From positions 1 through 64,000 of the forward strand of contig NZ_JAJIRQ010000007.1 of the NCBI RefSeq assembly GCF_025717605.1: a DNA stretch of 64,000 bases. The letters are read 5' to 3'. Shown here piece after piece: positions 7,509-30,285 of the stretch; position 1 is the stretch's first letter, and every line of letters begins with the position of its first letter. A program made the translations under genes and the position numbers. Source of the stretch: Paucibacter sp. TC2R-5 (GTDB taxonomy: Bacteria; Pseudomonadota; Gammaproteobacteria; Burkholderiales; Burkholderiaceae_C). Below the pieces are notes generated by a model that had not been told where the DNA came from, ran no database searches, and saw only the letters and a list, made by a program, of their open reading frames with translations.

Positions 7509-7535
7509 GCGCAGCAGTCAATAAGCTTGTCGGCC

Positions 7536-8372: not shown

Positions 8373-8446
8373 TCGAAGGGCGGGCCGACACTTGATTCAA
8401 TCATTCGATTTAATCCTTAGCTCCACTGAACCCCCAAAGGCTCTTC

Positions 8447-8740
8447 ATGATTCTCGAGATCGCCGAAATTCAAATTCCGCCTGGCCAGCAGGCCGCCTTT
8501 GAAGCCGCCATTGCGCATGGCATCAAGACCGTGATCGCACAGGCCCAGGGCTTTATGAGCGCGAGCGTCCAACATGGGCTGGAGTCACCCGAGCGTTACA
8601 TCTTGCAGATCGAATGGGCCAGCCTTGAGGACCATACCGTGCATTTTCGCGGCGGCCCCTTGTTCCCAGCTTGGCGCGCCATCGTCGGCCCCTTCTTCGC
8701 TCAGCCGCCTAGGGTGGAGCATTTCGAACGCGTCATTTAA
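8447..8740 (+). CDS. Antibiotic-biosynthesis-monooxygenase (ABM) domain protein
   Basis: 97 residues, a single dimeric alpha-beta ABM domain. It starts MILEIAEIQIPPGQ and contains GFMSASVQHGLESPERYILQ, WASLEDH and FRGGPLFPAWR, the pattern of small cofactor-free monooxygenase-like proteins. Many members are quinol or heme-related oxygenases, others have no known activity, so only the fold can be named. It is flanked by unrelated genes and is probably monocistronic. Confidence 0.85.
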   Translation: MILEIAEIQIPPGQQAAFEAAIAHGIKTVIAQAQGFMSASVQHGLESPERYILQIEWASLEDHTVHFRGGPLFPAWRAIVGPFFAQPPRVEHFERVI

Positions 8741-8851
8741 GCGGATGCGGTGAAGGGCCAGCTAAGCGCTTGTCTCAGGTCAAGCCGGAAGCCATAACGC
8801 TTGGCTAGACTGCGGTTGATCTCAGCCCCGCTGGGGCAAAAAAGCGACACC

Positions 8852-11542: not shown

Positions 11543-11548
11543 TGCAAG

Positions 11549-14416: not shown

Positions 14417-14582
14417 CTCAGCGCCTATCGAGTTCTTTGCACTCTACGCCTCCTTCTGATGATTGCCCGCCTGATTGGATGCCGGTTTGGCCCTCAAATC
14501 TGGCCGACTCAGTCCAGCTGTGACATCCGACACACTCGCGCCAGCAAGTTCGTGAGTGCGGGAAAACATCGACTCAGCTGGA

Positions 14583-15695: not shown

Positions 15696-17428
15696 CAGGC
15701 CAGCAGGCGCTGTGCGCAAAAAACCAGCACCGCGAGCGACACTGCGGCGCTGATCAAGGTGGCGATCTTGGCGCCCTGGGCGTTGCCCGAATAATGCTTT
15801 TCACCGGTCGGCCCAGCAAGCCGCGCCGCCTGGGCCGCGAGCACAAAGGTCCGGCGTGCAAAAAAGGCCTTGGGGCACAGCAGGGCCAATAGGAGCAGCA
15901 ACTGCGTCAGACCCGTGCCAGGCTCGCCCCCTTGCAGCGAACCCAGCACTTTGGCGTCGGCAATCAGAATCACCAAGATGCCCAGCATTGCGAACATCGA
16001 AGCACGCCCCGCAATAGCCTGCACTTCTTGCTCCACGGCACTCAGCCGCGTCGGGTCGTCCACCGTCAGCTGCACGCCGCCGGCACCCGCGTCGAAGACT
16101 GAGCGCGTCTCATCTTCTTGCTGAGGGAAGGGTGCTCGCCAAGCCGCCAAGACCGAGGGCACTGAAGCCAACATCACCAGCAAGAAGAAGCTGGAGAAAC
16201 CCAGCCATTCGGCCAAAGGGCCGGAAATCATCGCCGTGGGCACCAGCACCAGATTCATCAGCGCGGTGGCAAAGGCGTAATGCGTCATCGTCGAGCGCCC
16301 CGGCGCCAACTGCTGCATCAGATAGACCATATTCCCAACCATGCCAAAGCCATAGCCGAACTTTTCGATGCTGACCAGGGTCACGACGGCGCTGTAGTCC
16401 AGGCCATGGCCGGCCGCCGCAAAGTGGCTCATCAACACAAAGGTGAAGTGCGGGATGTTAAGGCTCAATCCCAGTATCCAGAGCGAGCGCCGCAGGCCCA
16501 GCTTGCCGGCAAAGGCGCCGCCGAGCAGGCCGCCCACGATGCTGGCGAGCGTGCCGTAAACAGCGTCGATATCGCTGACCTGGCCCGCGCTCAAGCCCAG
16601 ACCACCTTGCTCGGTGCTGCTTTGCAAAAAGAGCTGGCCTTCCATCAGGATCAGCCCTTCGCCCAGCCGATACAGAAAGACAAAGGCAATCATGCCCCAG
16701 AAGGCGCGCTTGTGAAAAAACGTTGTCGCCGTGCCGCTGAAGTCACGCCATACTTGTGCGGCTCCGCTGGGACGCGCCGCCACGCTGCCGGTCGGCAACA
16801 TCAACAGGTGATACAGCGCCAGCAGCCCCATGGCAGCGGCGCAGCTCAACATCACATGGCGCCACATGGTTTGATCGGACCAGCCCTGGGTGGCCTGCAG
16901 CTTGAACAGCAGAGAGATCAGCAGCCCGGTCGCCAAGACCTTGCCCAGCACCCAGAACGCGCCCTGCAGCCCGGCAAAACGCGTCTGCGCGGTTTTATCG
17001 AGCGCAGTCAGGTAGATCCCGTCCGCGCAGATGTCCTGGGTCGATGAGGCGAAGGCCGCCACCCACAGCAAGGCAATCGCGATCTGGAAGAAGCCCGGCT
17101 CGCCGACCGACATGGCGATGGCCGCAAACAAGAAGCCGCACAGCAGTTCCATCGTCAGCACAAAGAAGCGCTTGGTCCGGTACATGTCCAGAAAGGCTGC
17201 CCACAGCGGCTTCAAGGACCAGGCGATGCCTATGCTGCCAACCGCCACGGTGATCTGGCTGTCCGGAAAACCCAGCGACTTGAACATGCGCACCGAAGTG
17301 CCGTTGATCACGTTGTAGGGAATGCCCATGGCCAAGTACAGCGAGGCGACCCAAAAAATATTGCGCAGCGCCGAGAGAGGCGCCGCTTTGACCGGCGATG
17401 TGGGCTTCATTGAGCTCGAAAAGTCCAT
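15695..17428 (-). CDS. MFS transporter, AmpG/PAT-like, presumed oligosaccharide importer
   Basis: 577 residues with about 12 or more hydrophobic segments, longer than a typical MFS protein because of a central hydrophilic stretch (about 435-475) and a C-terminal tail. The start MDFSSSMKPTSP is followed by ALRNIFWVASLYLAMGIPYNV, which resembles AmpG-like permeases. It begins 3 bases after glk and overlaps the GH5 start, so it belongs to the operon. The context suggests inner-membrane uptake of cello-oligosaccharides or glucose; the substrate is inferred, not shown. A second ATG (17410) is possible. Confidence 0.85.
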   Translation of the reverse strand: MDFSSSMKPTSPVKAAPLSALRNIFWVASLYLAMGIPYNVINGTSVRMFKSLGFPDSQITVAVGSIGIAWSLKPLWAAFLDMYRTKRFFVLTMELLCGFLFAAIAMSVGEPGFFQIAIALLWVAAFASSTQDICADGIYLTALDKTAQTRFAGLQGAFWVLGKVLATGLLISLLFKLQATQGWSDQTMWRHVMLSCAAAMGLLALYHLLMLPTGSVAARPSGAAQVWRDFSGTATTFFHKRAFWGMIAFVFLYRLGEGLILMEGQLFLQSSTEQGGLGLSAGQVSDIDAVYGTLASIVGGLLGGAFAGKLGLRRSLWILGLSLNIPHFTFVLMSHFAAAGHGLDYSAVVTLVSIEKFGYGFGMVGNMVYLMQQLAPGRSTMTHYAFATALMNLVLVPTAMISGPLAEWLGFSSFFLLVMLASVPSVLAAWRAPFPQQEDETRSVFDAGAGGVQLTVDDPTRLSAVEQEVQAIAGRASMFAMLGILVILIADAKVLGSLQGGEPGTGLTQLLLLLALLCPKAFFARRTFVLAAQAARLAGPTGEKHYSGNAQGAKIATLISAAVSLAVLVFCAQRLLA

Positions 17429-17431
17429 TGT

Positions 17432-18421
17432 TCAATGCGCCGTATCAAGGTCAAGGGCGCGGCATGCACCTTGCAAGGCCGCCTGCTCGCTAGAGCGTAC
17501 GACATAGCTCGGGATGTCGCTCAAATAAGCCCGGAACCGTCCTTTGGCCTCAAAGCTGCGGCGGAATTTTGACTCGGAAAACCTGGCGCCCAGCCGCGGC
17601 ACAATGCCCCCGCCGATATAGACCCCGCCTCGAGCGCCCAGGGTCAGCGCCAGATTGCCGGCCACGCCGCCGAGCAAGCTGCAAAACATCTCCAGCGCGG
17701 CGTCGGCCATCGCATCGCTGCGCGCCAACGCGGCCTGCGTCACCTGCTGAGCCGCCAAAGCCTCCACGCGCACTCCATGCAACTGCGCCAGGGCCAAATA
17801 GAGATTCTCCAACCCCGGCCCCGACAAGGCCCGTTCGGCCGACACATGGCCGAAGCGCTGCTGCAAGATGTCCAGCACCGCCTGCTCTTCGGGCTCGTAA
17901 GAACTCAAGGTCACATGGCCGCCCTCGCCGCCCAGCGGTACCAGACCAGCGCCATAGGCCGGCACCAGGCCCGACACGCCCAGCCCTGTGCCAGGCCCAA
18001 TCAAGGCGATCGGCGCGCCGGGCACCGCTTGGCCCGTGCCTAGCTGGCAGAGCGCGTCGGCATGCAGCGTCGGCAGGGCCAGGGCTAGCGCCGAAAAGTC
18101 GTTCAACACCAGCAAGCGCTGCAGCCCCAAAGCCTCTTGCATGGCCTTGATCGAAAAGGTCCAAGCATGGTTGGTCATGCGGATATGGTCACCGGTGACC
18201 GGCGTGGCGATACCGATCGCGCTGGCGCGTGGCCGCTCCAGGCCCTCGCGCCAGAGGTGATGGCAGATCGCGTCACAGAGCGATTCAAAATCGGCACAGG
18301 CATAGCTGCCGGTCTGCTGCAAGGGGCCGTTAGCGCTGAGCTGGCTGGCGAAGCGAACATTGGTGCCGCCCACATCGGCGAGCAAGCGCGGAAAGCCTTG
18401 CGAGGCCGCGGAAGGATTCAT
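17432..18421 (-). CDS. glk: Glucokinase
   Basis: 329 residues from the ATG at 18421, giving MNPSAASQGFPRLLADVGGTNVRFA, the normal N-terminal phosphate-binding loop position for proteobacterial glucokinases of about 320 residues. A GTG at 18514 is also in frame and would overlap the beta-glucosidase stop by 14 bases, adding 31 residues that the family lacks. Other motifs are LVLNDFSALALALP, GPGTGLGVSGL, EGGHVTL, and GGVAGNLALTLGARGGVYIGGGI. It phosphorylates glucose released by the upstream beta-glucosidase. Second gene of the operon. Confidence 0.93.
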   Translation of the reverse strand: MNPSAASQGFPRLLADVGGTNVRFASQLSANGPLQQTGSYACADFESLCDAICHHLWREGLERPRASAIGIATPVTGDHIRMTNHAWTFSIKAMQEALGLQRLLVLNDFSALALALPTLHADALCQLGTGQAVPGAPIALIGPGTGLGVSGLVPAYGAGLVPLGGEGGHVTLSSYEPEEQAVLDILQQRFGHVSAERALSGPGLENLYLALAQLHGVRVEALAAQQVTQAALARSDAMADAALEMFCSLLGGVAGNLALTLGARGGVYIGGGIVPRLGARFSESKFRRSFEAKGRFRAYLSDIPSYVVRSSEQAALQGACRALDLDTAH

Positions 18422-18500
18422 GGGGTTCGCTTTCTGGGCCGGCTGCGTGGGCTTGTGCATTTGCTGCTGTGCCAGGATTGACTGCGTCAGCGCAGCCCGC

Positions 18501-19871
18501 TCAGGCGCCGCCACGACTCGCGCTCCCGAAGGCCTCGATCAACGCTCGGTACCAATGTGCGCTGGCCTTGGCCACGCGCTGCTGATTGCTGTAGTCCACA
18601 TGGAAGATGCCGAAACGCTTGAGGTAGCCCGAATTCCATTCGAAATTATCGAGCAAGCTCCAGTAGAAATAGCCCCGCACATCCACCCCCATATCCATCG
18701 CCTGCGCCAAAGCGGCCAGATGCGCTTTCAGATAGGCAATGCGTTCGACGTCCATCACCTGCCCGTCCACCAGTTCATCGGCATTGGCCATACCGTTTTC
18801 GGTGATGAAAATGGGCGGCGGCGAGTACTCGCGGGTGATGCGCACCAAATGCTGGGTCAATGCCTTGGGGTAGATTTCCCAACCCATATCGGTGAAGCCC
18901 AGCTTGCCCGGCGCGGGTACCGCCGGTGTCTGCGTGCTGATAAAGCTGCGGGTGTAGAAATTGACCCCCAGAAAGTCCAGCGGCTGCTGGATCAGGGTCA
19001 GGTCTTGCGGCTCTATCTGCGGGGCGTCTTCGCCCAGGTGCTCGATCACATCGGCCGGATAGCTGCCGCGAAAAATCGGGTCCATATACCAGCGCACATT
19101 CAAACCATCATCGATACGCGCTGCCTGGCGATCGGCCTCGATCGGCTCGGCGGGAAATGCCGGCGTGTGGTTCAAGACCACGCCGAGTTGCGTCTGCGTG
19201 ACGGCGCGCATCGCTTGGATCGCCGCGCCATGCGCCATCATCAAATGATGCGAAACCTGCATTGCTGCTTTGCGGCTGCGCATGCCCGGCGCAAACTGGC
19301 CGGTTTCATAACCCAAGGTTGCCACACACCAGGGTTCGTTCAATGTCGCGATGCTGGCGACCTTGGCGCCAAAGCGGCGGGCCACTTCGGCCGCATAGGC
19401 GGCAAAGTGCGGCACGATCTCGCGCGACAACCAGCCGCCCATGCTGTCATGCAGCGCTTGCGGCAAGTCCCAGTGATAGAGCGTGACATGGGGCTTGATA
19501 CCGGCCTCTACCAAGGCGTCAATCAGCTGATCATAAAAAGCAAAGCCGGCTTCGTTCCACGCGCCTTCGCCCAAGGCCTGCACACGCGGCCAGGAGATAG
19601 AGAAGCGATAGGCCTCCAGGCCCAACCACTTCATGCGCGCAATGTCTTCGCGGAACAAGTGGTAATGGTCGCACGCCACATCGATGTTGGAGGCATCATT
19701 GATGCGCCCTGGCTCGCCGCAGAAAGTATCCCAAATCGATGGCCCCTTGCCGTCGAGCGCCGATGCACCTTCTATCTGAGCCGCACTGGTGGCTGAGCCC
19801 CATTGAAAGCCGGCAGGAAAGTGCGTCGCCAAGTTGGTGTCTGCGGGCTTGAAATTGTCGTTGGCTGTCAT
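18501..19871 (-). CDS. GH1 beta-glucosidase
   Basis: 456 residues. The cytoplasmic GH1 barrel shows the acid/base Glu in IATLNEPWCVATLGY and the nucleophile Glu in IFITENGMAN, with FPAGFQWGSATSAAQIEG near the start and FYWSLLDNFEWNSGY near the end. It hydrolyses cellobiose or short beta-glucosides to glucose. I chose the ATG at 19871 (MTANDNFKP): the other in-frame ATG at 19922 lies inside the -10 hexamer of the promoter I infer at 19921-19950 and so would be upstream of the transcript start. First gene of the operon with glk, the MFS gene and GH5. Confidence 0.94.
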   Translation of the reverse strand: MTANDNFKPADTNLATHFPAGFQWGSATSAAQIEGASALDGKGPSIWDTFCGEPGRINDASNIDVACDHYHLFREDIARMKWLGLEAYRFSISWPRVQALGEGAWNEAGFAFYDQLIDALVEAGIKPHVTLYHWDLPQALHDSMGGWLSREIVPHFAAYAAEVARRFGAKVASIATLNEPWCVATLGYETGQFAPGMRSRKAAMQVSHHLMMAHGAAIQAMRAVTQTQLGVVLNHTPAFPAEPIEADRQAARIDDGLNVRWYMDPIFRGSYPADVIEHLGEDAPQIEPQDLTLIQQPLDFLGVNFYTRSFISTQTPAVPAPGKLGFTDMGWEIYPKALTQHLVRITREYSPPPIFITENGMANADELVDGQVMDVERIAYLKAHLAALAQAMDMGVDVRGYFYWSLLDNFEWNSGYLKRFGIFHVDYSNQQRVAKASAHWYRALIEAFGSASRGGA

Positions 19872-19920
19872 GGGTTCGGGTTTCAAATTAAGGCGGCGCT
19901 CTTTGCGATGGTGCGCGGCC

Positions 19921-19950
19921 ATAATAATTAAAAAAAGACAACGTTGTCAA
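19921..19950 (-). promoter_or_regulatory. Promoter of the beta-glucosidase operon
   Basis: Read on the minus strand: -35 TTGACA (19950-19945), an 18-bp spacer and -10 TATTAT (19926-19921). The palindrome at 19937-19948 lies across the -35 and spacer, which is a repressing position for a LacI-family protein. Seen directly; promoter activity is inferred. Confidence 0.7.
19937..19948. promoter_or_regulatory. LacI-type operator 1 (perfect palindrome)
   Basis: GACAACGTTGTC, a perfect 12-bp palindrome with a central CG as usual for LacI-family operators. It overlaps the -35 region of the leftward promoter. The centre lies 23 bp from operator 2. Confidence 0.8.
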
Positions 19951-19959
19951 CGAGAAATA

Positions 19960-19971
19960 GACAACGCTGTC
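19960..19971. promoter_or_regulatory. LacI-type operator 2 (one mismatch)
   Basis: GACAACGCTGTC, one base off the perfect palindrome, upstream of the leftward promoter. The centre is 23 bp from operator 1, about two helical turns, and 111 bp from operator 3. Confidence 0.75.
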
Positions 19972-20070: not shown

Positions 20071-20082
20071 GACAACGCTGTC
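20071..20082. promoter_or_regulatory. LacI-type operator 3 (one mismatch)
   Basis: GACAACGCTGTC, identical to operator 2, placed upstream of the rightward promoter with the same 23-bp centre spacing to operator 4. The bases before it (AAAC) match those before operator 2 in the other gene direction. Confidence 0.75.
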
Positions 20083-20091
20083 ATATCGCCG

Positions 20092-20121
20092 TTGACAACG
20101 TTGTCTTTTGATTCGTATCAT
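20092..20121 (+). promoter_or_regulatory. Promoter of the TonB-receptor/halogenase group
   Basis: -35 TTGACA (20092-20097), 18-bp spacer, -10 TATCAT (20116-20121). The predicted transcript start near 20128 leaves a leader of about 200 nt before the receptor ATG at 20329. Geometry is identical to the divergent beta-glucosidase promoter. The rest of the region between the two genes (19872-20328) shows no other element I can name. Confidence 0.7.
20094..20105. promoter_or_regulatory. LacI-type operator 4 (perfect palindrome)
   Basis: GACAACGTTGTC, overlapping the -35 hexamer and spacer of the TonB-receptor promoter. The block GTTGACAACGTTGTCTTTT is identical at operators 1 and 4 when each is read towards its own gene. 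Confidence 0.8.
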
Positions 20122-20328: not shown

Positions 20329-23300
20329 ATGAAAAGAGCTCAGTTCCAACACCGTCCGAGCACGATCGCCCAGCGGCGTGCCCTGAACGTGAAACCCGTG
20401 GCCAGCGCTTGCGCGGCCTTGTTGACTCTGTTTGCACCCGCCAGCCAGGCCCAGCAAGCAGCCACACCCACCCTCGCTGCCGATGCGCAGCAACTCGACA
20501 CGGTGGTCGTCACCGGCATCCGCCGATCGCTCGAATCCGCCGTTTCGCTCAAGCGCGAAAACCACGGCGTGGTGGACGGCATCGTTGCGGAAGACATCGG
20601 CAAGTTCCCAGACACCAATCTGGCGGAATCGATGCAGCGCATCTCAGGCGTGTCGATCGAACGCGGTCAAAGCGGTGAAGGATCCCGCGTCACCGTGCGC
20701 GGTATCGGCGCCGACTTCAATATGGTGCTCTTGAACGGCCGTCAAATGCCCGGCGCCTTGCTCAATAGCGCCGAGGGCGGCAGCTCAGCCAACTCGTCGC
20801 GCGCCTTCGACTTCTCCAATCTCTCGTCCGACTCGGTCTCGGCGATCGAGGTGTTCAAGACCAGCCGCGCCGCCAAGCCGGCCGGCGGCATCGGCGCCAC
20901 CATCAATATCAAGACCGCGCGTCCACTCGACAGCAAAGAACGCATCGCCAGCTTCTCCGTCAAGGCCAATCACGACGCTTCCAATGATCGCCTGCCCGAG
21001 ATGTATCAAGGCAGCAGCATAACGCCTGATCTGTCCGGCATCTACAGCGACACCTTTGCCAACGGCACCATAGGCATTTCGATCAGCGGCAGCTTCTCGC
21101 GGCGCGATTCCGGCTCCAACAAGGCCTACACGCAAAACGGCTGGCACCCCTTCCTTGGCGACGAGAGCGGCTGGGGTGCGATTCCGAGAAAGGGCGAGCC
21201 CGGTTACGAGCAAATCACCAACCGTCCAGGCCCGAATACTTTGTACTCGACGCCGGTGGACCTGCGCTATGCGTTGACCGCCTTGGAGCGCGAGCGCACC
21301 AACGGCCAATTGGTGCTGCAATACGCGCCCAGCAAAGACCTCAAGTTCACGCTTGACTACACGATGGCCGACAACACGGTCAACAAGAAGAACGTACAGG
21401 TCGGCACGTGGTTCAATTTCCAAGGCGGCCCTTCGGCCTGGACTGACGGCCCGGTCGCTGGCCCGATTTCTTACTCGGCCTTGTTCCCGGCCAAGGATCA
21501 TGACCTCGCCATCGACGGTGGTCAGTACGGCGAAAAGGCGAAGAACCGTTCCACCGGCTTCAACGCGGAATGGAAGATCAACGAGCAACTGAACGTGGAG
21601 CTCGATGCACACAGCTCCACCGCCAAGACGGGGGCCAACAGTCCTTACGGCACTTATTCTGTGATCGGCTCGGGCATGTTCAGCCAAGGCGATGCCATCG
21701 GCTATTACAACCAGGACATGCCCATCCTGAGCCTGCCCAACACGGTCTTTGACACCAACAAGATCCAGGTCGCCGGCACCCGTTTTGACAATGCCTTGAG
21801 CGATCAGAAGATCGATCAGGCCCAGTTCCGGGGCGCCTACAAGCTCAGCAGCGACGACAAGCTGAACTTCGGCATCTCCAGCACCAAGGTGAACAACCGC
21901 TCGGCCTCCGTCAACCACCAAAACGGCGACTGGGGCGGTGTCGGCAAGCAAGGCGATTACGCCGCCAGCTTGTTCAATACCGAAAGCCTGCCGAGCTATT
22001 TCGGCCAGGTCAAGGGCAGCGACGATCCGCGCCTGCTGCAGAAGTTCTACTCCTTTGATTTCAACGCCATGCGCGCCCGCGCGATTGAAATTGCGATGAA
22101 GTCGGGCACCTCCAGCCACCCCACACCGCTGACGCGCGAGGAAGCAGAGGCCTACTTCGCGGCCTATACCGACTTCACCAAGGGCGCCGACCTGCGCACG
22201 ACGGAAAAGTCGACCAGCGGCTTCTTGCAATACGACCACAGCTTCGACACCGCCATTCCGATGAGCGTGTCGGTCGGCGTGCGGCGCGAATCGACCAAGG
22301 TCGAATCCAGCTCGCAAGTGCTGTCGCTGACGGGTGCCAGCTGGGGTTCTTTGAACGAGATCTCGGTGCAGTCCGGCGGAACGACCTTCGGTTCATCCAG
22401 CGGCAAATACAGCTACTGGCTCCCAAGCATCGATTGGGATGCCGACCTGACGGCCAATATGAAGCTGCGCGCCAGCTACGGCGAGACCATAGGCCGCCCC
22501 GGTTGGGCTGCGCTCGCAGGCGGCGTGACGGTGGGTGACACGGCCAACGCAGGCGGCGGCACCGGCTCCACCGGCAATGCCGCGCTGCTGCCACTGCTGT
22601 CCAAAAACTGGGACACCTCGCTTGAGTACTACTACAGCAAGTCCAGCTATGTGGCCGCAGGTCTGTTCCGCAAGAACATCACCAACTTCATCTCCAGCAC
22701 CACGGTCAGGCAGCCGGTCGGCCAGGTTCACACGCCGATTGGGGGCAAATACTACCTTGCGGCAATAGCCAGCGGCTGCTCGGCCACCGATCCCAAGTGC
22801 CAGCGCAACTACATCTTCAACAACTTCAACGGCCAGCCGGGTGTGACCAAAACCGGCGTCAATGCGGCCGGCGAAATCCAGGGCACCATCGTGGGCCAGG
22901 CGACCGATCCCCTGTTGCAATTTGCGGTCACCACGCCGGCGAATGCCAAGGGCGATAACCTGAGTGGCGTTGAGCTGAACGCGCAGCATCTGTTCGGCAA
23001 CTCCGGCTTCGGCGTCGCGGGCAACTACACCCGGGTGTCATCCGGACTGTCCTACGACAACCACAGCACGGCTGCACAGTCGGCCTTGGTCGGGGTGAGC
23101 AACTCCTACAACCTGGTGGGCTTTTATGAAGGCGGAGGCTTCTCGGTGCGCGGCGCTTACAACTGGCGCGGCGAGTTCCTGGCGGCAACGACCGATGGCG
23201 CCGGCAACAACCCTATCTACACCGAGCCCTATGGTCAGATGGACATGACGATCGCCTACCGGATGACGAAGAACCTGACCTTCCAGGCTGACTTCCTCAA

Positions 23301-23406
23301 CCTGAACGACGGGGTTATCCGCCAGCACGGCCGCACCAAAGAGCAGCTAGTATCCGTGACTCAAACGGGCCGCCGCTATCTGGTGGGGGCACGCTACTCG
23401 TTCTAA
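20329..23406 (+). CDS. TonB-dependent outer-membrane receptor (carbohydrate type)
   Basis: 1025 residues from the ATG at 20329, preceded by GGAGA at 20321-20325; an upstream in-frame start at 20254 would add 25 residues with no signal character. A signal peptide ends near PASQAQQ. A TonB box-like DTVVVTGI follows, then the plug (about 75-215: DIGKFPDTNLAESMQRISGVSIER, RGIGADFNMVLLNGRQMPG) and a beta-barrel that ends in the terminal aromatic ARYSF. The plug resembles the receptor class widespread in Xanthomonas and Caulobacter carbohydrate loci. With the flanking glucanase and beta-glucosidase genes, import of beta-glucan oligosaccharides is likely. Expression should respond to the LacI regulator through operators 3 and 4. 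Confidence 0.93.
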   Translation: MKRAQFQHRPSTIAQRRALNVKPVASACAALLTLFAPASQAQQAATPTLAADAQQLDTVVVTGIRRSLESAVSLKRENHGVVDGIVAEDIGKFPDTNLAESMQRISGVSIERGQSGEGSRVTVRGIGADFNMVLLNGRQMPGALLNSAEGGSSANSSRAFDFSNLSSDSVSAIEVFKTSRAAKPAGGIGATINIKTARPLDSKERIASFSVKANHDASNDRLPEMYQGSSITPDLSGIYSDTFANGTIGISISGSFSRRDSGSNKAYTQNGWHPFLGDESGWGAIPRKGEPGYEQITNRPGPNTLYSTPVDLRYALTALERERTNGQLVLQYAPSKDLKFTLDYTMADNTVNKKNVQVGTWFNFQGGPSAWTDGPVAGPISYSALFPAKDHDLAIDGGQYGEKAKNRSTGFNAEWKINEQLNVELDAHSSTAKTGANSPYGTYSVIGSGMFSQGDAIGYYNQDMPILSLPNTVFDTNKIQVAGTRFDNALSDQKIDQAQFRGAYKLSSDDKLNFGISSTKVNNRSASVNHQNGDWGGVGKQGDYAASLFNTESLPSYFGQVKGSDDPRLLQKFYSFDFNAMRARAIEIAMKSGTSSHPTPLTREEAEAYFAAYTDFTKGADLRTTEKSTSGFLQYDHSFDTAIPMSVSVGVRRESTKVESSSQVLSLTGASWGSLNEISVQSGGTTFGSSSGKYSYWLPSIDWDADLTANMKLRASYGETIGRPGWAALAGGVTVGDTANAGGGTGSTGNAALLPLLSKNWDTSLEYYYSKSSYVAAGLFRKNITNFISSTTVRQPVGQVHTPIGGKYYLAAIASGCSATDPKCQRNYIFNNFNGQPGVTKTGVNAAGEIQGTIVGQATDPLLQFAVTTPANAKGDNLSGVELNAQHLFGNSGFGVAGNYTRVSSGLSYDNHSTAAQSALVGVSNSYNLVGFYEGGGFSVRGAYNWRGEFLAATTDGAGNNPIYTEPYGQMDMTIAYRMTKNLTFQADFLNLNDGVIRQHGRTKEQLVSVTQTGRRYLVGARYSF

Positions 23407-23418
23407 ACGGCAAGCACA

Positions 23419-23457
23419 CCGAACCGGCATGGCCCTCAAAAGGCCATGTCGGTTCGG
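23419..23457 (+). other. Strong intercistronic hairpin between receptor and halogenase genes
   Basis: A 16-bp stem with one G-T pair (CCGAACCGGCATGGCC, 23419-23434; GGCCATGTCGGTTCGG, 23442-23457) and a 7-nt loop. No run of T follows, so it is not a standard intrinsic terminator. It could cap the receptor mRNA against 3' decay or lower expression of the downstream genes. Confidence 0.65.
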
Positions 23458-23498
23458 GTCCGTATAGAAGCAGTCCTACAGTGATCGCGAGACTTGAT

Positions 23499-25094
23499 AT
23501 GACGGAAGCGGTGCGGCGCATCGTAGTGTTGGGGGGCGGCTCGGCGGGTTGGCTGAGCGCAGCCTTGTTGGCCGCAGAACATGGTGGTTTGGAAGACGGC
23601 AAATTGCAGATCAGCCTGATCGAATCGCCCAACGCTCCCGCCATCGGGGTGGGTGAAGGCACATGGCCCTCGATGCGCGAGACGCTGCAGCGCATCGGTC
23701 TGCGCGAGCTTGACCTGCTGCGCGACTGCGACACTGCCTTCAAACAAGGTTCGCGTTTCGACGGCTGGGTCAATGGCGACGTGAGCGGCGAGGCCAGCGA
23801 CAAGGCCAGCAACAAACAGTCCGACCGCTATTACCACCCCTTCTCGCTGCCGCAGGGCCATGGTGAGGTCGATCTCGTGGGCGCCTGGCTGCACGCCGGC
23901 ACCGAGCAGGGCTTTGCGCAGGATTTTGCGTTTAGCGTGAGCCCTCAACCCCTGGTCTGCGATGCGAGCTTGGCCCCCAAGCAAGTGACAACGCCAGAAT
24001 TCGGCGGCGCCCTCAACTACGGCTACCACTTCGATGCCGTCAAGCTGGGCGTCCTGCTGCGCAAGCACGCCACCGAGAAACTTGGCGTGAGGCATGTGGC
24101 CGACGAAGTCACCCAGGTGCTCACCCATGAAAACGGCGACCTCAAAGCCCTGCAGACCCGCAGCCACGGCGCGATCGAGGGTGATCTCTTCATCGACTGC
24201 TCGGGCCTGAAGGCCTTGCTGATTGGTCAGCACTACGGCATCGGGCTGCGCTCGCAACAGCATGTGCTGTTCAATGACAGCGCCTTGGCCCTGCAAGTGC
24301 CCTACTCCGATACACAGGGCCCGCTGGCCTCGGTCACGATCGCCACGGCCCATGCCGAAGGCTGGACCTGGGACATAGGCCTGCCCAGCCGGCGCGGCGT
24401 TGGCCTGGTCTACTCCAGCACCCATACCAGCCGCGAGGCAGCAGAACTGGCGCTGCGCCAGCATATTGCCCGCAGCGGCGGCCCGGCCGCGGCCGAGCTG
24501 CCCAGCCCGCGCCACATCCCCTTCGCGCCGGGCTACCGTGAACGCTTCTGGCATCACAACTGCGTGGCGGTGGGCCTGTCCTCAGGCTTTATCGAACCGC
24601 TGGAGGCCTCGGCACTCGCGCTGGTCGAGTTGTCGGCCGCGATGATCCGCGATGAGCTGCCCGCTACCCGCGCCGATATGGCCCTCGTGGCCAAACGCTT
24701 CAACGAGGCCTTCGACTACCGCTGGGCCCGCATCATCGACTTCCTCAAACTGCATTACGCCTTGAATCAGCGCAATGACGCCGACTACTGGCGCGAGCAT
24801 CGCCAAGCGGCCTCCATGCCCGAACGCTTGGGCGAGCTGCTGCAGCTGTGGCGGCACCGGGCCCCTTTGCGCGGCGATCTGTTTCGCGTCGACGAAGTGT
24901 TTCCCGCCGCCAGCTATCAATATGTGCTTTACGGCATGGGCTTCAAACCGCAGCTGCCGCCCCCCCGCGCGAACCGCCTGGCACAGGCGCAAGCCTGCTT
25001 CCAGCAGGTGAGCAGCGCCAGCAAACGAATGCTGGGCGGCCTGCCGCGCCACCGCGATTTGATACGCCACATCCAGGCGCACGGCATGACCTAA
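23499..25094 (+). CDS. Flavin-dependent tryptophan-halogenase-like protein (first copy)
   Basis: 531 residues from the ATG at 23499, with a weak GAGA before it; a GTG at 23481 is the alternative. The FAD-binding glycine motif is IVVLGGGSAGWLSAALLA, followed by GVGEGTWPSM. The lysine that handles hypohalous acid in known halogenases is matched by Lys82 in DTAFKQGSRF. The halogenase WxWxIP motif reads WTWDIGLP, with an extra residue. SSGFIEPLEASAL matches the conserved glutamate region. Homologues occur beside TonB receptors in Xanthomonas and Brevundimonas; some halogenate indoles in vitro but their natural substrate is unknown. Free-tryptophan chlorination is therefore not a safe call here. 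Confidence 0.85.
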   Translation: MTEAVRRIVVLGGGSAGWLSAALLAAEHGGLEDGKLQISLIESPNAPAIGVGEGTWPSMRETLQRIGLRELDLLRDCDTAFKQGSRFDGWVNGDVSGEASDKASNKQSDRYYHPFSLPQGHGEVDLVGAWLHAGTEQGFAQDFAFSVSPQPLVCDASLAPKQVTTPEFGGALNYGYHFDAVKLGVLLRKHATEKLGVRHVADEVTQVLTHENGDLKALQTRSHGAIEGDLFIDCSGLKALLIGQHYGIGLRSQQHVLFNDSALALQVPYSDTQGPLASVTIATAHAEGWTWDIGLPSRRGVGLVYSSTHTSREAAELALRQHIARSGGPAAAELPSPRHIPFAPGYRERFWHHNCVAVGLSSGFIEPLEASALALVELSAAMIRDELPATRADMALVAKRFNEAFDYRWARIIDFLKLHYALNQRNDADYWREHRQAASMPERLGELLQLWRHRAPLRGDLFRVDEVFPAASYQYVLYGMGFKPQLPPPRANRLAQAQACFQQVSSASKRMLGGLPRHRDLIRHIQAHGMT

Positions 25095-25134
25095 GCACCA
25101 AGCCAAGCCCCCTATTCACCCCAACTGATACGCC

Positions 25135-25836
25135 ATGCAAAACCCACAACTGCTCGACAACATCACGCACAAAGACCTGCGCATCATCACCCGCCGTGGT
25201 GCCGAATGGGGTGACGCAAGGATGTCCTGTATCGCCACACCGGACGAGTTTCGCCGCCTGCAGGTGCATTACCCCATCGTGTTTCAGAAGAACGATCAAG
25301 GCGCGATGCAGCCGCTGGCCCTGTTCGGCCTGCAAGAAGGTCAGAACCTTTTCCTCGGCCCCGAGGGCTGGACGGTGCCTTATGTGCCCCTGGCCATGCA
25401 GCGCGAGCCTTTCATGATTGGCGTCAACGAGGATGAGCTCCGGATGCTGGTCGATATGGCCAGCCCGCGCATCAGCCAGGGCGCCGAAGGCGAGGCGGTG
25501 TTCTTGCCGCTGGGCGGCACAAGCGAGTTTCTGGAACATGCCAACTCGGTGCTGAAGACCTTGCACGAAGGCTTGCAAGCGACGCCCGCCTTCATAGACG
25601 CCCTGCTCGCGCATGAGTTGCTGGAGCCCTTTGTCCTGGATGTAGAGCGGCCAGACGGCTCGCATGGCCGCTTGGTCGGCCTGTACACCATCCATGAAGA
25701 GCGCCTCGCGGCCCTGGACGAAAAGACGGTGGGCCTGCTGCACCAAGCGGACTATCTGATGCCCATCTATATGGCCGTGGCCTCGCTGTCCCATTTACAC
25801 ACGCTGATCCGCCTGCAACTCGCACGCGAAGCTTGA
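25135..25836 (+). CDS. SapC family protein
   Basis: 233 residues. SapC-like features include NITHKDLRIITRRGAEWGDARMSCIATPDEFRRLQ (start of that block near residue 8), VHYPIVFQK and PYVPLAMQREPFMIGV. It has no signal peptide or membrane segment, so it is probably cytoplasmic. The name comes from an S-layer-associated reading frame in Campylobacter, but the function is unknown. It is a regular companion of TonB receptors and halogenase-like genes in carbohydrate loci. It starts 40 bases after the first halogenase gene and ends 4 bases before the cupin gene. Confidence 0.85.
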   Translation: MQNPQLLDNITHKDLRIITRRGAEWGDARMSCIATPDEFRRLQVHYPIVFQKNDQGAMQPLALFGLQEGQNLFLGPEGWTVPYVPLAMQREPFMIGVNEDELRMLVDMASPRISQGAEGEAVFLPLGGTSEFLEHANSVLKTLHEGLQATPAFIDALLAHELLEPFVLDVERPDGSHGRLVGLYTIHEERLAALDEKTVGLLHQADYLMPIYMAVASLSHLHTLIRLQLAREA

Positions 25837-25840
25837 AGCC

Positions 25841-26854
25841 ATGAGCCGACCCATGCTCGAGCGCAGCGACATCCGCGCCGACGCCTTGCCCGCCGATCTG
25901 CTGCAAAGCACCGAGCCGGTACTGCTGCGCGGCTTGGTGCGCCATTGGCCGATGGTTCAGGCTGCGCAGCAATCAGATCAGCAGTTCTGCGACTACCTGC
26001 GCGGCTTTGGCGCCGCCGGTGCAGCCACCAAGGTCGGGCTGTGGCGCGGCGCGCCGGCCATCGAAGGCCGATTCTTCTACAACACCGATTTCAGCGGCTT
26101 CAACTATCAGCGCGAGATTGCCGGCTTCGGCGCCCTGCTGGACGAGTTGCTGGCGCAGGCGAAAGTGGCGAATCCGCCCGCACTCTATCTGGGCTCCACC
26201 GAGCTTGACGGCTCCTTCCCCGGCCTGCGCCAAGCGAATGACTTGCCGCTGAATGTGGCCGAGCCCTTGGTCAGCCTGTGGCTGGGCAATCGGGTGCGCG
26301 TGGCCGCCCATTTCGACCTGCCCGACAACATCGCCTGCGTCGTCGCCGGGCGGCGTCGCTTCACACTGTTCCCGCCCGAACAGGTCGCCAATCTATACAT
26401 CGGCCCCCTGGACCTGACCCCGGCCGGTCAAGCCATCAGCCTGGTCGATATTGCCAAGCCAGACTTCGAGCGCTTCCCGCGCTATGCGCAAGCGCTGGCG
26501 CAGGCACAGACGGTGGAACTGCTGCCTGGGGACGCGGTGTTCATCCCCAGCCTGTGGTGGCATGCGGTGGAGGCGCTGGAGCCTATCAGCGCGCTGGTGA
26601 ACTTCTGGTGGCGGCAAAGCCCTGCCTTTATGGACTCGCCAATGAACACCTTGATGCTGGCCCTGATGACGCTGCGTGAGCTGCCGCCGGCCCAGCGCCA
26701 AGCCTGGGAGGCTTTGTTCGATCACTATGTTTTCCACGCGGACGCACAAACCGCCGCCCATATCCCGCCCCACGCTCAAGGCGTGCTGGCACCCATCACG
26801 CCGGACCGTGCGCGCCATCTGCGCTCGGTGCTGCTGAACCGACTGAATCGCTAG
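25841..26854 (+). CDS. Cupin-8 (JmjC-like) 2-oxoglutarate/Fe(II) oxygenase-type protein
   Basis: 337 residues. The double-stranded beta-helix shows the iron-binding His157-x-Asp159 in AAHFDLPDN and the distal His241 in PSLWWHAVEAL, with FTLFPPEQVANLYIGPL between them as in JmjC-like hydroxylases. The N-terminus VLLRGLVRHWPMVQ is also typical. The expected chemistry is hydroxylation of a protein or small molecule. The same type of protein, named pass1-related in some Xanthomonas loci, accompanies halogenase and SapC genes. It starts 4 bases after sapC, so translation is likely coupled. Confidence 0.85.
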   Translation: MSRPMLERSDIRADALPADLLQSTEPVLLRGLVRHWPMVQAAQQSDQQFCDYLRGFGAAGAATKVGLWRGAPAIEGRFFYNTDFSGFNYQREIAGFGALLDELLAQAKVANPPALYLGSTELDGSFPGLRQANDLPLNVAEPLVSLWLGNRVRVAAHFDLPDNIACVVAGRRRFTLFPPEQVANLYIGPLDLTPAGQAISLVDIAKPDFERFPRYAQALAQAQTVELLPGDAVFIPSLWWHAVEALEPISALVNFWWRQSPAFMDSPMNTLMLALMTLRELPPAQRQAWEALFDHYVFHADAQTAAHIPPHAQGVLAPITPDRARHLRSVLLNRLNR

Positions 26855-26875
26855 TTAGTGAGTGAGGCCCTGCCC

Positions 26876-29173
26876 ATGAACCCCTCGACCCAAACATCAA
26901 CACCAACACCTTACGCCTCCAAGCCCGTGCGCCGCATCGTCATTGCCGGCGGCGGGACCGCCGGCTGGATGGTGGCCGCCGGCCTGTCCAAAAGCTTGGG
27001 CCGCCTGTACGACATCCGCCTGATCGAGTCGGAAGAAATCGGCACCATAGGCGTCGGCGAAGCGACCATCCCGACCCTGCATTTCTTTCACGAGATCCTC
27101 GGCATCGATGAGCGCGAATTCATGGCCGCCACGCAGGCCACCTTCAAGCTGGGCATCAGTTTCGAGAACTGGCGCAATGTCGGCGAGCATTACTTCCACT
27201 CCTTCGGCACGACCGGCAAGCCACATTGGACGGCCGGCTTTCAGCATTTCTGGCTGGAGGGCCGCAAGCGTGGACTGGCCAGCGACTATGGTGACTATTG
27301 CCTGGAGTTGCGCGCGGCGATGGACAATCGTTTTGCCCATCTGCCCAACACCGGCCTGAACTACGCCTACCACCTCGACGCGACGCTCTATGCCCAGTAT
27401 TTGCGCCGTTACTCCGAGGCCCTGGGCGTGCGGCGCATCGAGGGCAAGATCGTCAAGGTGCACAGCGACCTCAGCGGCGAGGCCAGCCATGGCGGCATCA
27501 CCGGGCTGAGCTTGAATGACGGCTCGCTGATCGAAGGCGATCTGTTCATCGACTGCACCGGCATGCGCTCACTGCTGCTGGGCGAGACCCTCGGCGTGGC
27601 CTATCAAGATTGGTCGGAATGGTTGCACTGCGACAGCGCCGTGGCCGTGCAGACCGCCTCGGTCGGCGAGGCCGTGCCCTACACCCGCTCGATCGCCCAC
27701 CCCTGGGGCTGGCAATGGCGGATTCCGCTGCAGCACCGGGTCGGCAACGGCCTGGTCTTCAGCAGCCGCCATCTCGACGACGAGGCGGCCAAGGTCGCAC
27801 TGCTGGCCAATGTGCAGGGCGAGGTGATGCGCCAGCCGCGCGTCATCAAGTTCACGCCGGGCCAGCGCGAGCTGGTATGGAAGCGCAATTGCGTGGCCAT
27901 CGGCCTGTCCAGCGGCTTTTTGGAGCCACTGGAGTCCACCAGCATTCACCTGATTCAACGCGGCTTGACGCGCTTGATTCAGATGTTCCCGGCCGATGGC
28001 ATTTGCCAAAGCGATATTGACGAATACAACGACCAATCGCGCCGCGCCATCGAGACGATTCGAGACTTCATCATCCTGCATTACCACGTCAACAATCGCA
28101 CCGATGCCAAACTCTGGCGTGATTGCCGCGAGATGGCGGTGCCTAACTTGTTGGCCCATCGCATCCAGCTCTTCAAGGACTCGGCACGGGTTTGCCTCGA
28201 CTCCGACGAGCTGTTCCGCGATAACTCGTGGATTCAGGTGATGATGGGCCAGGGCATTGCGCCCAGCGCCCACCATCCGGTGACACGTCAGATGAATGAC
28301 GCCGACCTGGGCGAATTTCTCGGCGAGATCCGCAAAGACGCCGCGCGCAGCCTCATCAAGCTGCCCAAGCATCAGGACTATGTCGGCCGGTTCTGCGGCG
28401 CGCCCAAGCCGGCAACAACCAGTCCGTCAGCAGCCCCCAAAGTCAACACCTCTTCCGGCCCTGCATTGCTGCTGAATCCCAAGCCCCATATTCAAACCAT
28501 CCCGCTGAGCAACGGTCAAGAAGTCTTCGTCATCGATGACTTCGTGCAGGACCCGGATGGCTTGGTGCGCTTGGCGCAGTCGGTCTCGAATCAGTTCCAC
28601 AGACCTGCCGGCCACCCCTACCCTGGCCCGCAGCTGGACTTACCCGCCGAGATGGCCGCGCAGCTTGACGACTACTTCCGCCACCATCTGCGCGCCCGGC
28701 TGCAGGCCGGCCCTCCTTTGGGCATGTATGGCCGCTTTTCGCGCGTCACCCAAGAAGCCAGCACGCTGGATGCCCGCCAGCGCACCTGCCACCGCGATGA
28801 CTCTGGTTTGGAGCCCGGGCAGATGATGTGCGCGCTCGTCCACTATTTGTTCGGGGATGAGCGGCTGGGCGGCACCGTCTTGTTCCGCTCGCTGATGTCC
28901 GAGGCCGACACCCAAAGCTTTCTGGCCGACGCAAAAAGCCTGAGCGGCAGCGACTTCGGCAATAAATATGGCATACCGGCGGGCTATATGACGCAGAGCA
29001 ACCGCTACTTCGAGGTGATTGGCCGCGTGCCGGCCAAATGGAACCGCGCGGTCTTTTACGACGGCAGCATCTTCCACTCCGGCGACATTCAGGCCGCCAG
29101 CGCAGCCTACCAGGCGGGCCTGGGGCGCTTGACCGTCAACGCTTTCTTCCAGAGCGCCAAGCTGGCGGCTTGA
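26876..29173 (+). CDS. Halogenase-like protein fused to a C-terminal 2OG-Fe(II)-type (DUF6445-like) domain
   Basis: 765 residues from the ATG at 26876, with AGTGAGG at 26860-26866; a GTG at 26858 is also in frame. Residues about 18-515 form a flavin-dependent halogenase: GGGTAGWMVAAG, GVGEATIPTLHFF, Lys91 in ATFKLGISFENW, the canonical motif Trp279-Gln-Trp281-Arg-Ile-Pro, and Glu350 in SSGFLEPLESTS. A Ser/Ala/Pro-rich linker (about 508-530) leads to a domain of about 235 residues (VFVIDDFVQDPDGL onward) with His639-x-Asp641 in TCHRDDSG, His734 in IFHSGDI and Arg751 in GLGRLTVN, the layout of an iron and 2-oxoglutarate site. Separate genes are the common form as far as I know. It is the last gene of the rightward group. 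Confidence 0.85.
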   Translation: MNPSTQTSTPTPYASKPVRRIVIAGGGTAGWMVAAGLSKSLGRLYDIRLIESEEIGTIGVGEATIPTLHFFHEILGIDEREFMAATQATFKLGISFENWRNVGEHYFHSFGTTGKPHWTAGFQHFWLEGRKRGLASDYGDYCLELRAAMDNRFAHLPNTGLNYAYHLDATLYAQYLRRYSEALGVRRIEGKIVKVHSDLSGEASHGGITGLSLNDGSLIEGDLFIDCTGMRSLLLGETLGVAYQDWSEWLHCDSAVAVQTASVGEAVPYTRSIAHPWGWQWRIPLQHRVGNGLVFSSRHLDDEAAKVALLANVQGEVMRQPRVIKFTPGQRELVWKRNCVAIGLSSGFLEPLESTSIHLIQRGLTRLIQMFPADGICQSDIDEYNDQSRRAIETIRDFIILHYHVNNRTDAKLWRDCREMAVPNLLAHRIQLFKDSARVCLDSDELFRDNSWIQVMMGQGIAPSAHHPVTRQMNDADLGEFLGEIRKDAARSLIKLPKHQDYVGRFCGAPKPATTSPSAAPKVNTSSGPALLLNPKPHIQTIPLSNGQEVFVIDDFVQDPDGLVRLAQSVSNQFHRPAGHPYPGPQLDLPAEMAAQLDDYFRHHLRARLQAGPPLGMYGRFSRVTQEASTLDARQRTCHRDDSGLEPGQMMCALVHYLFGDERLGGTVLFRSLMSEADTQSFLADAKSLSGSDFGNKYGIPAGYMTQSNRYFEVIGRVPAKWNRAVFYDGSIFHSGDIQAASAAYQAGLGRLTVNAFFQSAKLAA

Positions 29174-29208: not shown

Positions 29209-30285
29209 TCAGACCTTCTTCGGCGCAAGGTGCGGATGTGCTGATGGGTGCAGGGCGCGGCTGGAGTCCCGCACCAGCAGTTGGTGCGGCAGCACCCGGT
29301 GTGAGCTTTGCGGCGTCGCCGCCTCGGCGTCATTGCCCTTGGCGGTGATCAGCATTTCCACCGCCACGCTGGCCATCTCGTGCGTCGGCTGGCGCACGGT
29401 GGTCAACGGCGGCCAGACTAGGCTGGCTGCGCTGGAATCATCGAAGCCGGCAATCGACAAATCGGCCGGCACGTTCAACCCCAAGCGCTGCGCCGCAGCC
29501 AGCACACCCAAAGCCATATCGTCATTGCTGGCAAAGACGGCCGTAGGTCGCACGCTGCGGCTCAGCAGCTTGTGCGCCCCTTCCACGCCGCTGGGGAAGG
29601 TGAAGTCGCCCTCCCACACCAGGCTCTCTTCAACCGTCAGATCATGGGCCTGCATGGCACGCACAAAGCCCCGGTAGCGCAGCTCCGAGGCCGCCTGATC
29701 GGGTGCGCCTCGGATGAAGCCAATGCGTTCATGGCCCAGGCTGATCAACAAGTTCGTGACCTCTTCGGCGGCGAGCTCGTCATCCATGCGCACGCTGAAC
29801 TGATCGGCCGGCTCTTGTCCAGGCGAAAGCAGCACAAAAGGCGTTTCGTTGTCGCGCAGAGCCTGCAGAACCTTGGGGTTATCACACAGGGGCGGCGTCA
29901 AAATCATGCCGTCCGGGCGCAGCGCCGAGACCATGCGGTCAACCTGGTTGTAGATGTCCGGAGCGTCGTTGTGCAGAGACTCCACCACCAGGTGGTAGCC
30001 TGACTCTCGGCAGCGCAGCGTCGCTCCCTGCTGGACCCCGCCGACAAAGGCTGCACTGGGGTCGTAATAGAGCAGGCCGATCAAAAAGGAGCGCCCGCCG
30101 CCCATGCTGCGCGCGGCCAGCTTGGGCCGGTATTTCAGTTCGGCCACGACCTTGAGCACTTGCTCACGGGTCTTGTCCTGCACGCCGGCTTCCTTGTTGA
30201 GCACGCGGGAAACGGTCTTGATCGACACGCCGGCTTGTTCGGCCACATCAACAATCGTCGGGCTAGACCCTACTTTGCTTGCCAC
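29209..30285 (-). CDS. LacI-family transcriptional regulator of the beta-glucan locus
   Basis: 358 residues with a GTG start preceded by AAGGA 10 bases upstream. The N-terminal helix-turn-helix reads TIVDVAEQAGVSIKTVSRVLN, followed by a hinge (KYRPKLAARSM) and a periplasmic-binding-protein-like effector domain (about 65-340) with VFASNDDMALGVLAAAQRLG and DLSIAGFDD. It faces the halogenase fusion gene tail to tail. It is the only LacI protein in the window and the natural candidate to bind the four palindromes at 19.94-20.10 kb, with a glucoside as inducer; that link is inferred. I see no copy of the palindrome at its own promoter. Confidence 0.93.
   Translation of the reverse strand: MASKVGSSPTIVDVAEQAGVSIKTVSRVLNKEAGVQDKTREQVLKVVAELKYRPKLAARSMGGGRSFLIGLLYYDPSAAFVGGVQQGATLRCRESGYHLVVESLHNDAPDIYNQVDRMVSALRPDGMILTPPLCDNPKVLQALRDNETPFVLLSPGQEPADQFSVRMDDELAAEEVTNLLISLGHERIGFIRGAPDQAASELRYRGFVRAMQAHDLTVEESLVWEGDFTFPSGVEGAHKLLSRSVRPTAVFASNDDMALGVLAAAQRLGLNVPADLSIAGFDDSSAASLVWPPLTTVRQPTHEMASVAVEMLITAKGNDAEAATPQSSHRVLPHQLLVRDSSRALHPSAHPHLAPKKV

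Follow-up and report, generated by a model that had tools for sequence, protein, structure and literature searches.

What do two flavoproteins of the tryptophan halogenase type, a SapC protein and two putative hydroxylases do directly behind the gene of a sugar receptor? The question is raised by five consecutive genes on the + strand (positions 20329 to 29173) of a DNA stretch of 64,000 nucleotides from Paucibacter sp. TC2R-5 (contig NZ_JAJIRQ010000007.1, positions 1 to 64,000), referred to here as the window. Judged by its sequence, the locus is a beta-glucan carbohydrate-utilisation locus with a TonB-dependent receptor (CUT locus) of a known kind, carrying an uncommon, conserved enzyme cassette; the family membership of the genes is clear, except for an altered motif in the first halogenase (H1). 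The most coherent reading of this cassette, which we favour tentatively and rate as somewhat short of probable, is that it tailors a protein, most likely the receptor itself.

A conserved cassette behind a TonB receptor gene

A first-pass annotation, made from the DNA letters, had described a receptor, two halogenase-like flavoproteins, SapC and a cupin_8 oxygenase in a row. All five genes were found, and their coordinates were verified. What had to be changed was the last gene (26858-29173), which encodes one protein of 771 residues (P0005) and is more than a halogenase: its halogenase domain (H2) is fused to a DUF6445 domain. Not part of that annotation were this fusion, a stem-loop between the receptor and enzyme genes and another copy of the set, some 240 kb distant. 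The components of the cassette are:

20329 to 23406, + strand: TonB-dependent receptor (P0001) of the Xanthomonas/Caulobacter type (TIGR01782, 604 bits against a cut-off of 310), in the SapC-linked receptor clade
23481 to 25094, + strand: H1, tryptophan halogenase-type flavoprotein of the 2PYX subfamily (P0002; PF04820, 383 bits), likely start ATG 23499
25135 to 25836, + strand: SapC (P0003; PF07277, 212 bits against a cut-off of 28.9)
25841 to 26854, + strand: cupin_8 protein, FIH/JMJD5-like 2-oxoglutarate- and Fe(II)-dependent (2OG-Fe(II)) oxygenase with HFD...H (PF13621, 236 bits)
26858 to 28399, + strand: H2, Xcc4156/BrvH-type halogenase domain of the fused gene (PF04820, 612 bits, residues 26-480)
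28478 to 29173, + strand: DUF6445 domain, predicted 2OG-Fe(II) oxygenase, fused to H2 (PF20043, 212 bits, residues 541-764)

From the receptor to the last gene the intergenic gaps measure 74, 40, 4 and 3 bp; the first becomes 92 bp if H1 starts at ATG 23499, and the last 21 bp if H2 starts at ATG 26876. The locus combines the receptor with a sugar transporter, a glycosidase and a sugar regulator, as expected of a CUT locus, its shared control resting on predicted operators and promoters. It is alike in TonB receptor, inner-membrane sugar transporter, glycosidases and regulator to the CUT loci of Xanthomonas and Caulobacter and to the BglR/omp-Bgl loci of Shewanella, the latter with shared operators (PMC1790865; PMC2996990). 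The main texts of these two papers contain no mention of halogenase, SapC or cupin, whereas the receptor operon of the window carries all of these.

Loci were collected around DUF6445, SapC and halogenase genes and annotated by profiles built for this analysis. The full order receptor-H1-SapC-cupin_8-H2-DUF6445 appeared in L111, L116, L129 (Shewanella saliphila) and L133, and subsets of it in Microbulbifer (L130, L131), Pseudoalteromonas (L134, L135), Xanthomonas prunicola (L128) and others. On a Sphingobium plasmid, the existing annotation gives, in this order, a receptor, SapC, a cupin-like protein, a tryptophan halogenase, a glycoside hydrolase (GH) of family GH16, LacI, an MFS transporter, GH3 and GH43. 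On these comparisons the cassette is widespread and has a conserved gene order. Similar sets had been expected in Xanthomonas, which the X. prunicola locus bears out, and in Caulobacter; the Caulobacter vibrioides control genome matches PF07277 and, at E <= 1e-60, PF04820, both scored at the level of the whole genome. H2 and DUF6445 are fused in the window, L098, L101 and L102 and are separate genes in the other loci that have both; their fusion suggests that they act on one target. The second set of the same genome (L007, C43:258000-277000, positions 7392-15376), with the order receptor-H1-SapC-H2, stands behind a glucokinase-like gene and adjoins a GH30-like gene (families assigned by eye), with no cupin_8 or DUF6445 gene adjacent. 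This genome also has two more halogenase-receptor pairs, L087 (C6:24342-29201) and L008 (C2:112069-122417); in one a separate DUF6445 gene lies between halogenase and receptor, and in the other the receptor is about 4 kb from a SapC gene.

The components also travel together at the level of whole genomes. Across 299 Pseudomonadota genomes SapC was found in 104, PF04820 (E <= 1e-60, with at most five candidates per genome scored in nearly all genomes) in 36 and DUF6445 in 16. SapC was present in all 16 DUF6445 genomes and in 35 of the 36 halogenase genomes, against a background of 104/299 (hypergeometric P of 2e-8 and 3e-17, respectively, both overstated because the genomes are related). A record of 23199 bases named Bacteriophage sp., from a human fecal sample (MT835646.1), matches H2, SapC and DUF6445 and is probably a bacterial contig.

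The link with the receptor gene was then expressed as distance. A TonB receptor lies within 2 kb in 60 of 74 halogenase loci (107 halogenase genes); counted by gene, a receptor was near in 74/107 (within 2 kb), 90/107 (5 kb) and 95/107 (8 kb), and in two further loci (L210, L241) a receptor-like gene was recognised by eye, masked by an antisense frame. All six full-length halogenases of the Paucibacter genome are within 3.6 kb of one of its seven TIGR01782 receptors. Around DUF6445 the receptor was found within 2 kb in 16/40 loci and within 8 kb in 27/40, and a receptor or a halogenase within 8 kb in 30/40.

A receptor tree (FastTree) was built from 122 of 144 receptors, excluding duplicates and those shorter than 800 aa; it includes 15 unlinked receptors, classed from 1.5-kb flanks, a small number because the sample was drawn around the enzymes. 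One clade of 48 receptors (support 100) holds 43 of the 49 SapC-linked receptors, the other six standing elsewhere. The SapC label changes 11 times on the tree against a shuffled mean of 38.5, a clustering that near-copies favour, and nine of the ten receptors with DUF6445 only fall in one group of 13. By this tree, most of the cassette is tied to one receptor clade. A PDB sequence search with the window receptor gave no match up to E 0.001.

The enzymes and the substrates they suit

The nearest structures to H2 in a PDB sequence search are Xcc4156 (6Y1W, 702 bits), 9LUQ (548 bits) and BrvH (6FRL, 459 bits). Its motifs GGGTAGW, ATFKLGISF, WQWRIPL and FLEPLESTSI, located by eye and aligned with 6Y1W, are what we take to be the signatures of flavin-dependent halogenases. 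With PF04820, GxGxxG, WxWxIP and the active-site Lys and Glu, H2 belongs with the Xcc4156/BrvH type and differs from these two by its fusion to DUF6445. The nearest structures to H1 are 2PYX (530 bits), 9LTB (481 bits) and 9LU2 (397 bits). It shares the subfamily of 2PYX, matches PF04820 and carries FIEPLEASAL and the Lys region TAFKQGSRF; in place of WxWxIP it has WTWDIGL. W.WDI[GA]L is present in at least 30 of 43 H1 sequences, and for the most part these motifs set the H1 and H2 subfamilies apart. The pattern used for the Lys region was too narrow, matching 23/115 H2 and 19/43 H1 sequences.

Both subfamilies have solved members with near relatives inside operons of this kind. The H2 of X. 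prunicola matches Xcc4156 with 1017 bits and sits in a receptor-SapC-cupin_8-H2 operon, and the H1 of Shewanella saliphila matches 2PYX with 1006 bits and sits in a six-gene operon; by sequence, the two pairs are likely orthologues. The two solved structures would therefore belong to this operon type, and the question of their substrate becomes a mass-spectrometry test on one membrane protein. The native substrates of BrvH and Xcc4156 are given as unknown (PMC7336383; PMC5945002), in agreement with the first-pass annotation. Both enzymes act on free indoles in vitro, and their authors propose peptides or larger substrates because the active sites are open (PMC7336383; PMC5945002). The main texts of both papers have 0 occurrences of TonB, and among open-access papers, as judged from titles and listings (subscription papers lay outside the scope), we found none that connects halogenases of this type with both SapC and TonB receptors.

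The hydroxylases point in the same direction. The closest relatives of the cupin_8 protein are FIH and JMJD5. With these JmjC asparaginyl/arginyl hydroxylases it shares the HxD...H core, and it differs from them as a bacterial protein in a sugar-uptake operon. Its alignment with FIH (65 bits) spans the HxD...H iron ligands, and H157, D159 and H241, which are invariant in four sequences, give it a JmjC/FIH-like ligand set; a distal WWH was found in 44/44 sequences and AH[FYW]D in 24/44. The DUF6445 domain gave no match in a PDB sequence search up to E 1. In 34 aligned sequences (from 40 matches above 150 bits; four weaker matches were left out) H103, D105, H198 and R215 are invariant, the HxD...H...R signature of 2-oxoglutarate oxygenases. 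A model built from four sequences, with a predicted local distance difference test score (pLDDT) of 68, has prolyl 4-hydroxylases and KanJ as its best PDB matches (E 1.2e-3 and weaker). We predict from sequence and model that DUF6445 is a 2OG-Fe(II) oxygenase, which would give the family an enzyme class. The nearness of cupin_8 to FIH/JMJD5 and of the DUF6445 model to prolyl 4-hydroxylases suggests enzyme types that suit protein substrates. Distant DUF6445-like domains were also seen in L105 and L106 (and L104), at the C terminus of longer proteins; in L105 and L106 the N-terminal part looks TPR-like on inspection by eye. The stretches of L104-L106 showed no receptor.

SapC is the least transparent member of the set. 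Its AlphaFold model is confident (pLDDT 96) and had no match among solved structures in a Foldseek search (best E 0.059, probability 0.05); nothing convincing was found in a PDB sequence search either (best E 0.24).

The receptor and other candidate targets

If the cassette tailors the receptor, its working could be as follows. Beta-glucosides would release the LacI repressor from the two divergent promoters, and the receptor would be made in excess, with the enzymes, encoded behind the stem-loop, in smaller amounts. H1 and H2 (with FADH2, O2 and halide, or O2 alone) would act in the cytoplasm together with the two 2OG-Fe(II) oxygenases, cupin_8 and DUF6445, to halogenate or hydroxylate protein side chains, most likely those of the receptor prior to its export; SapC would serve as adaptor or holdase. 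Loops altered in this way might bind sugars differently, or make the receptor harder for phages and bacteriocins to recognise. Modification of a receptor or surface protein had already been proposed for this locus; the linkage with the receptor, the FIH-like and prolyl 4-hydroxylase-like enzymes and the phage parallel support the idea as a possibility. QhpG is a halogenase-fold flavoenzyme that acts on peptide tryptophan. MibH is another (PMC7336383; PMC5945002). Both are unlike the cassette halogenases in their low similarity (MibH, 5UAO, 183 bits to H2; QhpG, 36.9 bits to H1).

The best argument for a protein target is one of analogy, namely the separate pairing of such enzymes with surface binding proteins in phages. 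We picked nine phage loci (L328-L336) from 30 listed, out of 61 records with a halogenase match; the carriers of phage halogenases include cyanophages and a pelagiphage. A 2OG oxygenase occurs in six of the nine (HTVC008M, Sf-CH11, syn9, Syn1, P-TIM40 and S-RIM44) and tail-fibre or virion genes stand near the halogenase in six (HTVC008M, Sf-CH11, syn9, P-TIM40, S-SRM01 and S-RIM44), while the stretches of S-H38 and S-B64 have neither. In syn9, S-RIM44 and P-TIM40 the order is tail-fibre assembly genes, two tandem halogenases, 2OG-Fe(II) oxygenases; a JmjC/cupin_8 protein is also encoded in syn9, and a cupin-like protein in P-TIM40. The cyanophage loci are thus like the cassette in their tandem halogenases with 2OG-FeII_Oxy_5 and JmjC/cupin-like proteins (syn9, P-TIM40), but unlike it in having no receptor in the stretches and no SapC match, and in an identity to H2 of about 27-33%. 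DUF6445 also matches phrog_1644 (E 8e-15), a family labelled minor coat protein, of which two phage members retain HMD...H...R (profile comparison E 4e-4, probability 34%); by these residues the "minor coat protein" looks like an oxygenase. The wider idea, that a dedicated cytoplasmic cassette finishes the sugar receptor and that the tail fibres of cyanophages are treated by enzymes of these types, as one chemistry shared by surface binding proteins, is more doubtful than the protein target as such. If true, this chemistry would halogenate Trp or Tyr and hydroxylate Asn, Asp or Pro in receptor surface loops, and BrvH, Xcc4156, 2PYX and the cyanophage enzymes would gain natural protein substrates. 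Should the receptor be the target, this would be a kind of post-translational modification of TonB receptors that is absent from the papers searched.

Several observations weigh against the receptor as the target, the first of them from the search for a target residue. Across 92 halogenase-linked receptors, conservation of Trp, His and Cys stays below 80% at every position, and in the comparison of linked with unlinked receptors none is conserved in all the linked ones. In the 33 receptors linked to SapC and H2, the residues W535, W672, W946, N325, D216 and D392 (P0001 numbering) are invariant, and within the SapC clade of 48 receptors W535 is found in 35/35 with H2 and in 1/13 without it. The state of H2 changed just twice on this part of the tree, too few times for the pattern of W535 to decide. 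An unbiased residue scan on independent pairs gave no residue beyond noise. The group contrasts and independent-pairs scans yielded clade signals only and were dropped as a way to the target residue; W535 and W672 are weak candidates by sequence, and an orphan receptor (L302/L324) with no local cassette gene retains both. Once ancestry is allowed for, no receptor residue tracks the enzymes, and the sequence evidence neither shows nor excludes the receptor as the target.

Other points on the same side concern location and linkage. None of the cassette enzymes shows a signal peptide by eye, whereas the receptor is exported. By profile, a receptor within 2 kb is missing from 14 of the 74 halogenase loci, and 2OG oxygenases are absent from the stretches of three of the nine phage loci. 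For SapC, a single pattern gave 534 relatives, of which we took the best 80 and scored 76 named loci; just eight of these have a receptor within 3 kb and 68 have none found at that distance. Because most of these loci are without a nearby receptor, the SapC family has a wider role than the receptor cassette; the stand-alone SapC genes showed no single partner among their neighbours. Finally, gene neighbourhood cannot separate modification of the receptor from modification of its imported cargo.

This last point leads to the main rival, which we consider doubtful: the enzymes would tailor a small molecule, either an imported or glycan-released aromatic (e.g. an aglycone freed by GH1) or endogenous indole, into a halogenated signal or a detoxified product. 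The in vitro use of free indoles by BrvH and Xcc4156 speaks for it, as do enzymes that, having no visible signal peptide, would meet cytoplasmic aglycones, and the want of a conserved receptor residue that tracks them. On the other side, FIH-like enzymes are mostly protein hydroxylases, and the sugar genes around related halogenases are of many kinds. These were surveyed in 57 hand-picked proteins near halogenases without SapC and 58 near SapC modules, mostly from lists of 289 and 194 (three of the 58 came from L136, outside these lists); the families are those among the matches listed (the best 25 of 72 and the best 25 of 41), and, the proteins being hand-picked, the tallies are a survey and not rates. 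Near halogenases without SapC we found alpha-amylase (15), GH67 (3), GH97 (3), GH31 (2), GH3 (2) and GH9, GH20, fucosidase and glucoamylase (1 each); near SapC modules, GH3 (10), GH1 (7), GH20 (2), LacI (6), MFS_1 (13), MFS_2 (7) and FGGY kinases (3). The glycosidase neighbours vary between loci and the receptor recurs, and no common aromatic partner would be expected near enzymes of alpha-glucan, xylan, chitin and fucose. BrvH, moreover, converts indole slowly, and the authors of that work question whether it is the substrate used in nature (PMC5945002).

We find it improbable that the target is an envelope protein or peptide other than the receptor, with the cassette sharing no more than its regulation with sugar uptake. 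In favour of this reading, the enzymes look cytoplasmic, the candidate residues persist in the orphan receptor although it has no enzymes beside it, and some phages have the same enzyme types beside tail-fibre genes, so that targets can differ. Against it, no neighbour is as constant as the receptor, and SapC linkage is clustered on the receptor tree. A still weaker case can be made for halogenase folds that no longer halogenate and serve as redox enzymes or monooxygenases (QhpG-like oxygenation of Trp, or consumption of O2 and flavin), which is very improbable: H1 departs from WxWxIP, as do most of its subfamily, and its match to the QhpG family is weak and under the cut-off (240 bits), but H2 keeps WQWRIPL and its high score to Xcc4156, an enzyme active on indole derivatives in vitro (PMC7336383). 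The suggestion of the first-pass annotation, that lignin-linked phenolics or other aromatic parts of plant walls are modified during glucan use, has GH5 and GH1 of the locus in its favour and is hardly credible, because halogenases of the same kind without SapC adjoin alpha-glucan, xylan and chitin enzymes (alpha-amylase, GH67, GH97, GH31, GH20, GH9 and fucosidase genes), relatives occur in marine genera, an imported lignin fragment would be needed and 0/10 scanned locus proteins belong to a lignin-type family; we set it aside on these neighbour families.

Control of the locus

The sequences around the receptor operon fit regulation by glucans. The features concerned are:

14583 to 19922, - strand: divergent beta-glucoside arm with GH1 beta-glucosidase, glucokinase, AmpG-like MFS transporter and GH5 (profile matches)
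19921 to 19950, - strand: promoter-like TTGACA-18-TATTAT, 11/12, overlapping the operator at 19937
19937 to 19971, no strand assigned: operator pair 1, GH1 side, GACAACGTTGTC at 19937-19948 and GACAACGCTGTC at 19960-19971
20071 to 20105, no strand assigned: operator pair 2, receptor side, GACAACGCTGTC at 20071-20082 and GACAACGTTGTC at 20094-20105
20092 to 20121, + strand: promoter-like TTGACA-18-TATCAT, 11/12, overlapping the operator at 20094
23419 to 23457, + strand: strong RNA stem-loop in the receptor-enzyme gap, with no T-run after it (fold of 23400-23500)
29209 to 30285, - strand: LacI-family regulator, presumed ligand-responsive repressor of both arms (profile matches; similar LacI genes stand beside the module in other loci)

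The LacI-type operator GACAACGYTGTC occurs in four copies (19937, 19960, 20071 and 20094) arranged as two pairs with 23-bp spacing. Allowing one mismatch, it has nine strand-matches in the window, eight of them at the four sites; shuffled sequences gave 0.75 on average and 7 at most. Genome-wide (5.13 Mb), the exact 13-mer TGACAACGNTGTC occurs three times, namely in the operators at 19937 and 20094 and inside a solute-binding-protein coding region; the reversed control gave 0. The two sigma-70-like promoters point outward, each overlapping an outward-facing operator. The number of promoter matches is no better than chance (2, where shuffles average 1.9); what counts is therefore where they lie and not how many there are. 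One LacI-type operator region common to the receptor operon and to the GH1/glucokinase/MFS/GH5 operon had been proposed before, and the four predicted operators with two overlapping divergent promoters uphold it; the LacI protein would co-repress both arms. That control is unlike that of secondary metabolism, as also proposed, agrees with operators at both divergent promoters and with GH1, GH3, LacI and MFS genes near SapC loci in other genera. A site with at least 11/14 matches was found upstream of the receptor in 11 of 41 loci, including the near relatives L098 and L101 and the Pseudoxanthomonas locus L127, and none at that threshold in 30/41, L102 and L007 among these.

The stem-loop behind the receptor gene is also shared. 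In dinucleotide shuffles, applied to the window and two relatives, the fold of 23400-23500 (-43.6 kcal/mol) has a z of -5.4, against -5.9 in L101 and -3.5 in L102. In a survey of gaps of 20-250 bp with mononucleotide shuffles, z was -2 or lower in 57/70 gaps behind receptors and in 2/37 other operon gaps, the control being other gaps in operons and not receptor genes without enzymes. A stem of at least 8 bp is present in 65 of the 70 gaps behind receptors and a T-rich tail follows in 23. The stem-loop may set a high ratio of receptor to enzymes, via partial termination or protection of the receptor message.

Two details concern the divergent arm. The AmpG-like MFS protein scores 120.7 bits, under the family cut-off of 350. 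The GH1 gene possibly starts at ATG 19871 instead of the listed 19922, because the second hexamer of the reverse promoter covers the listed start.

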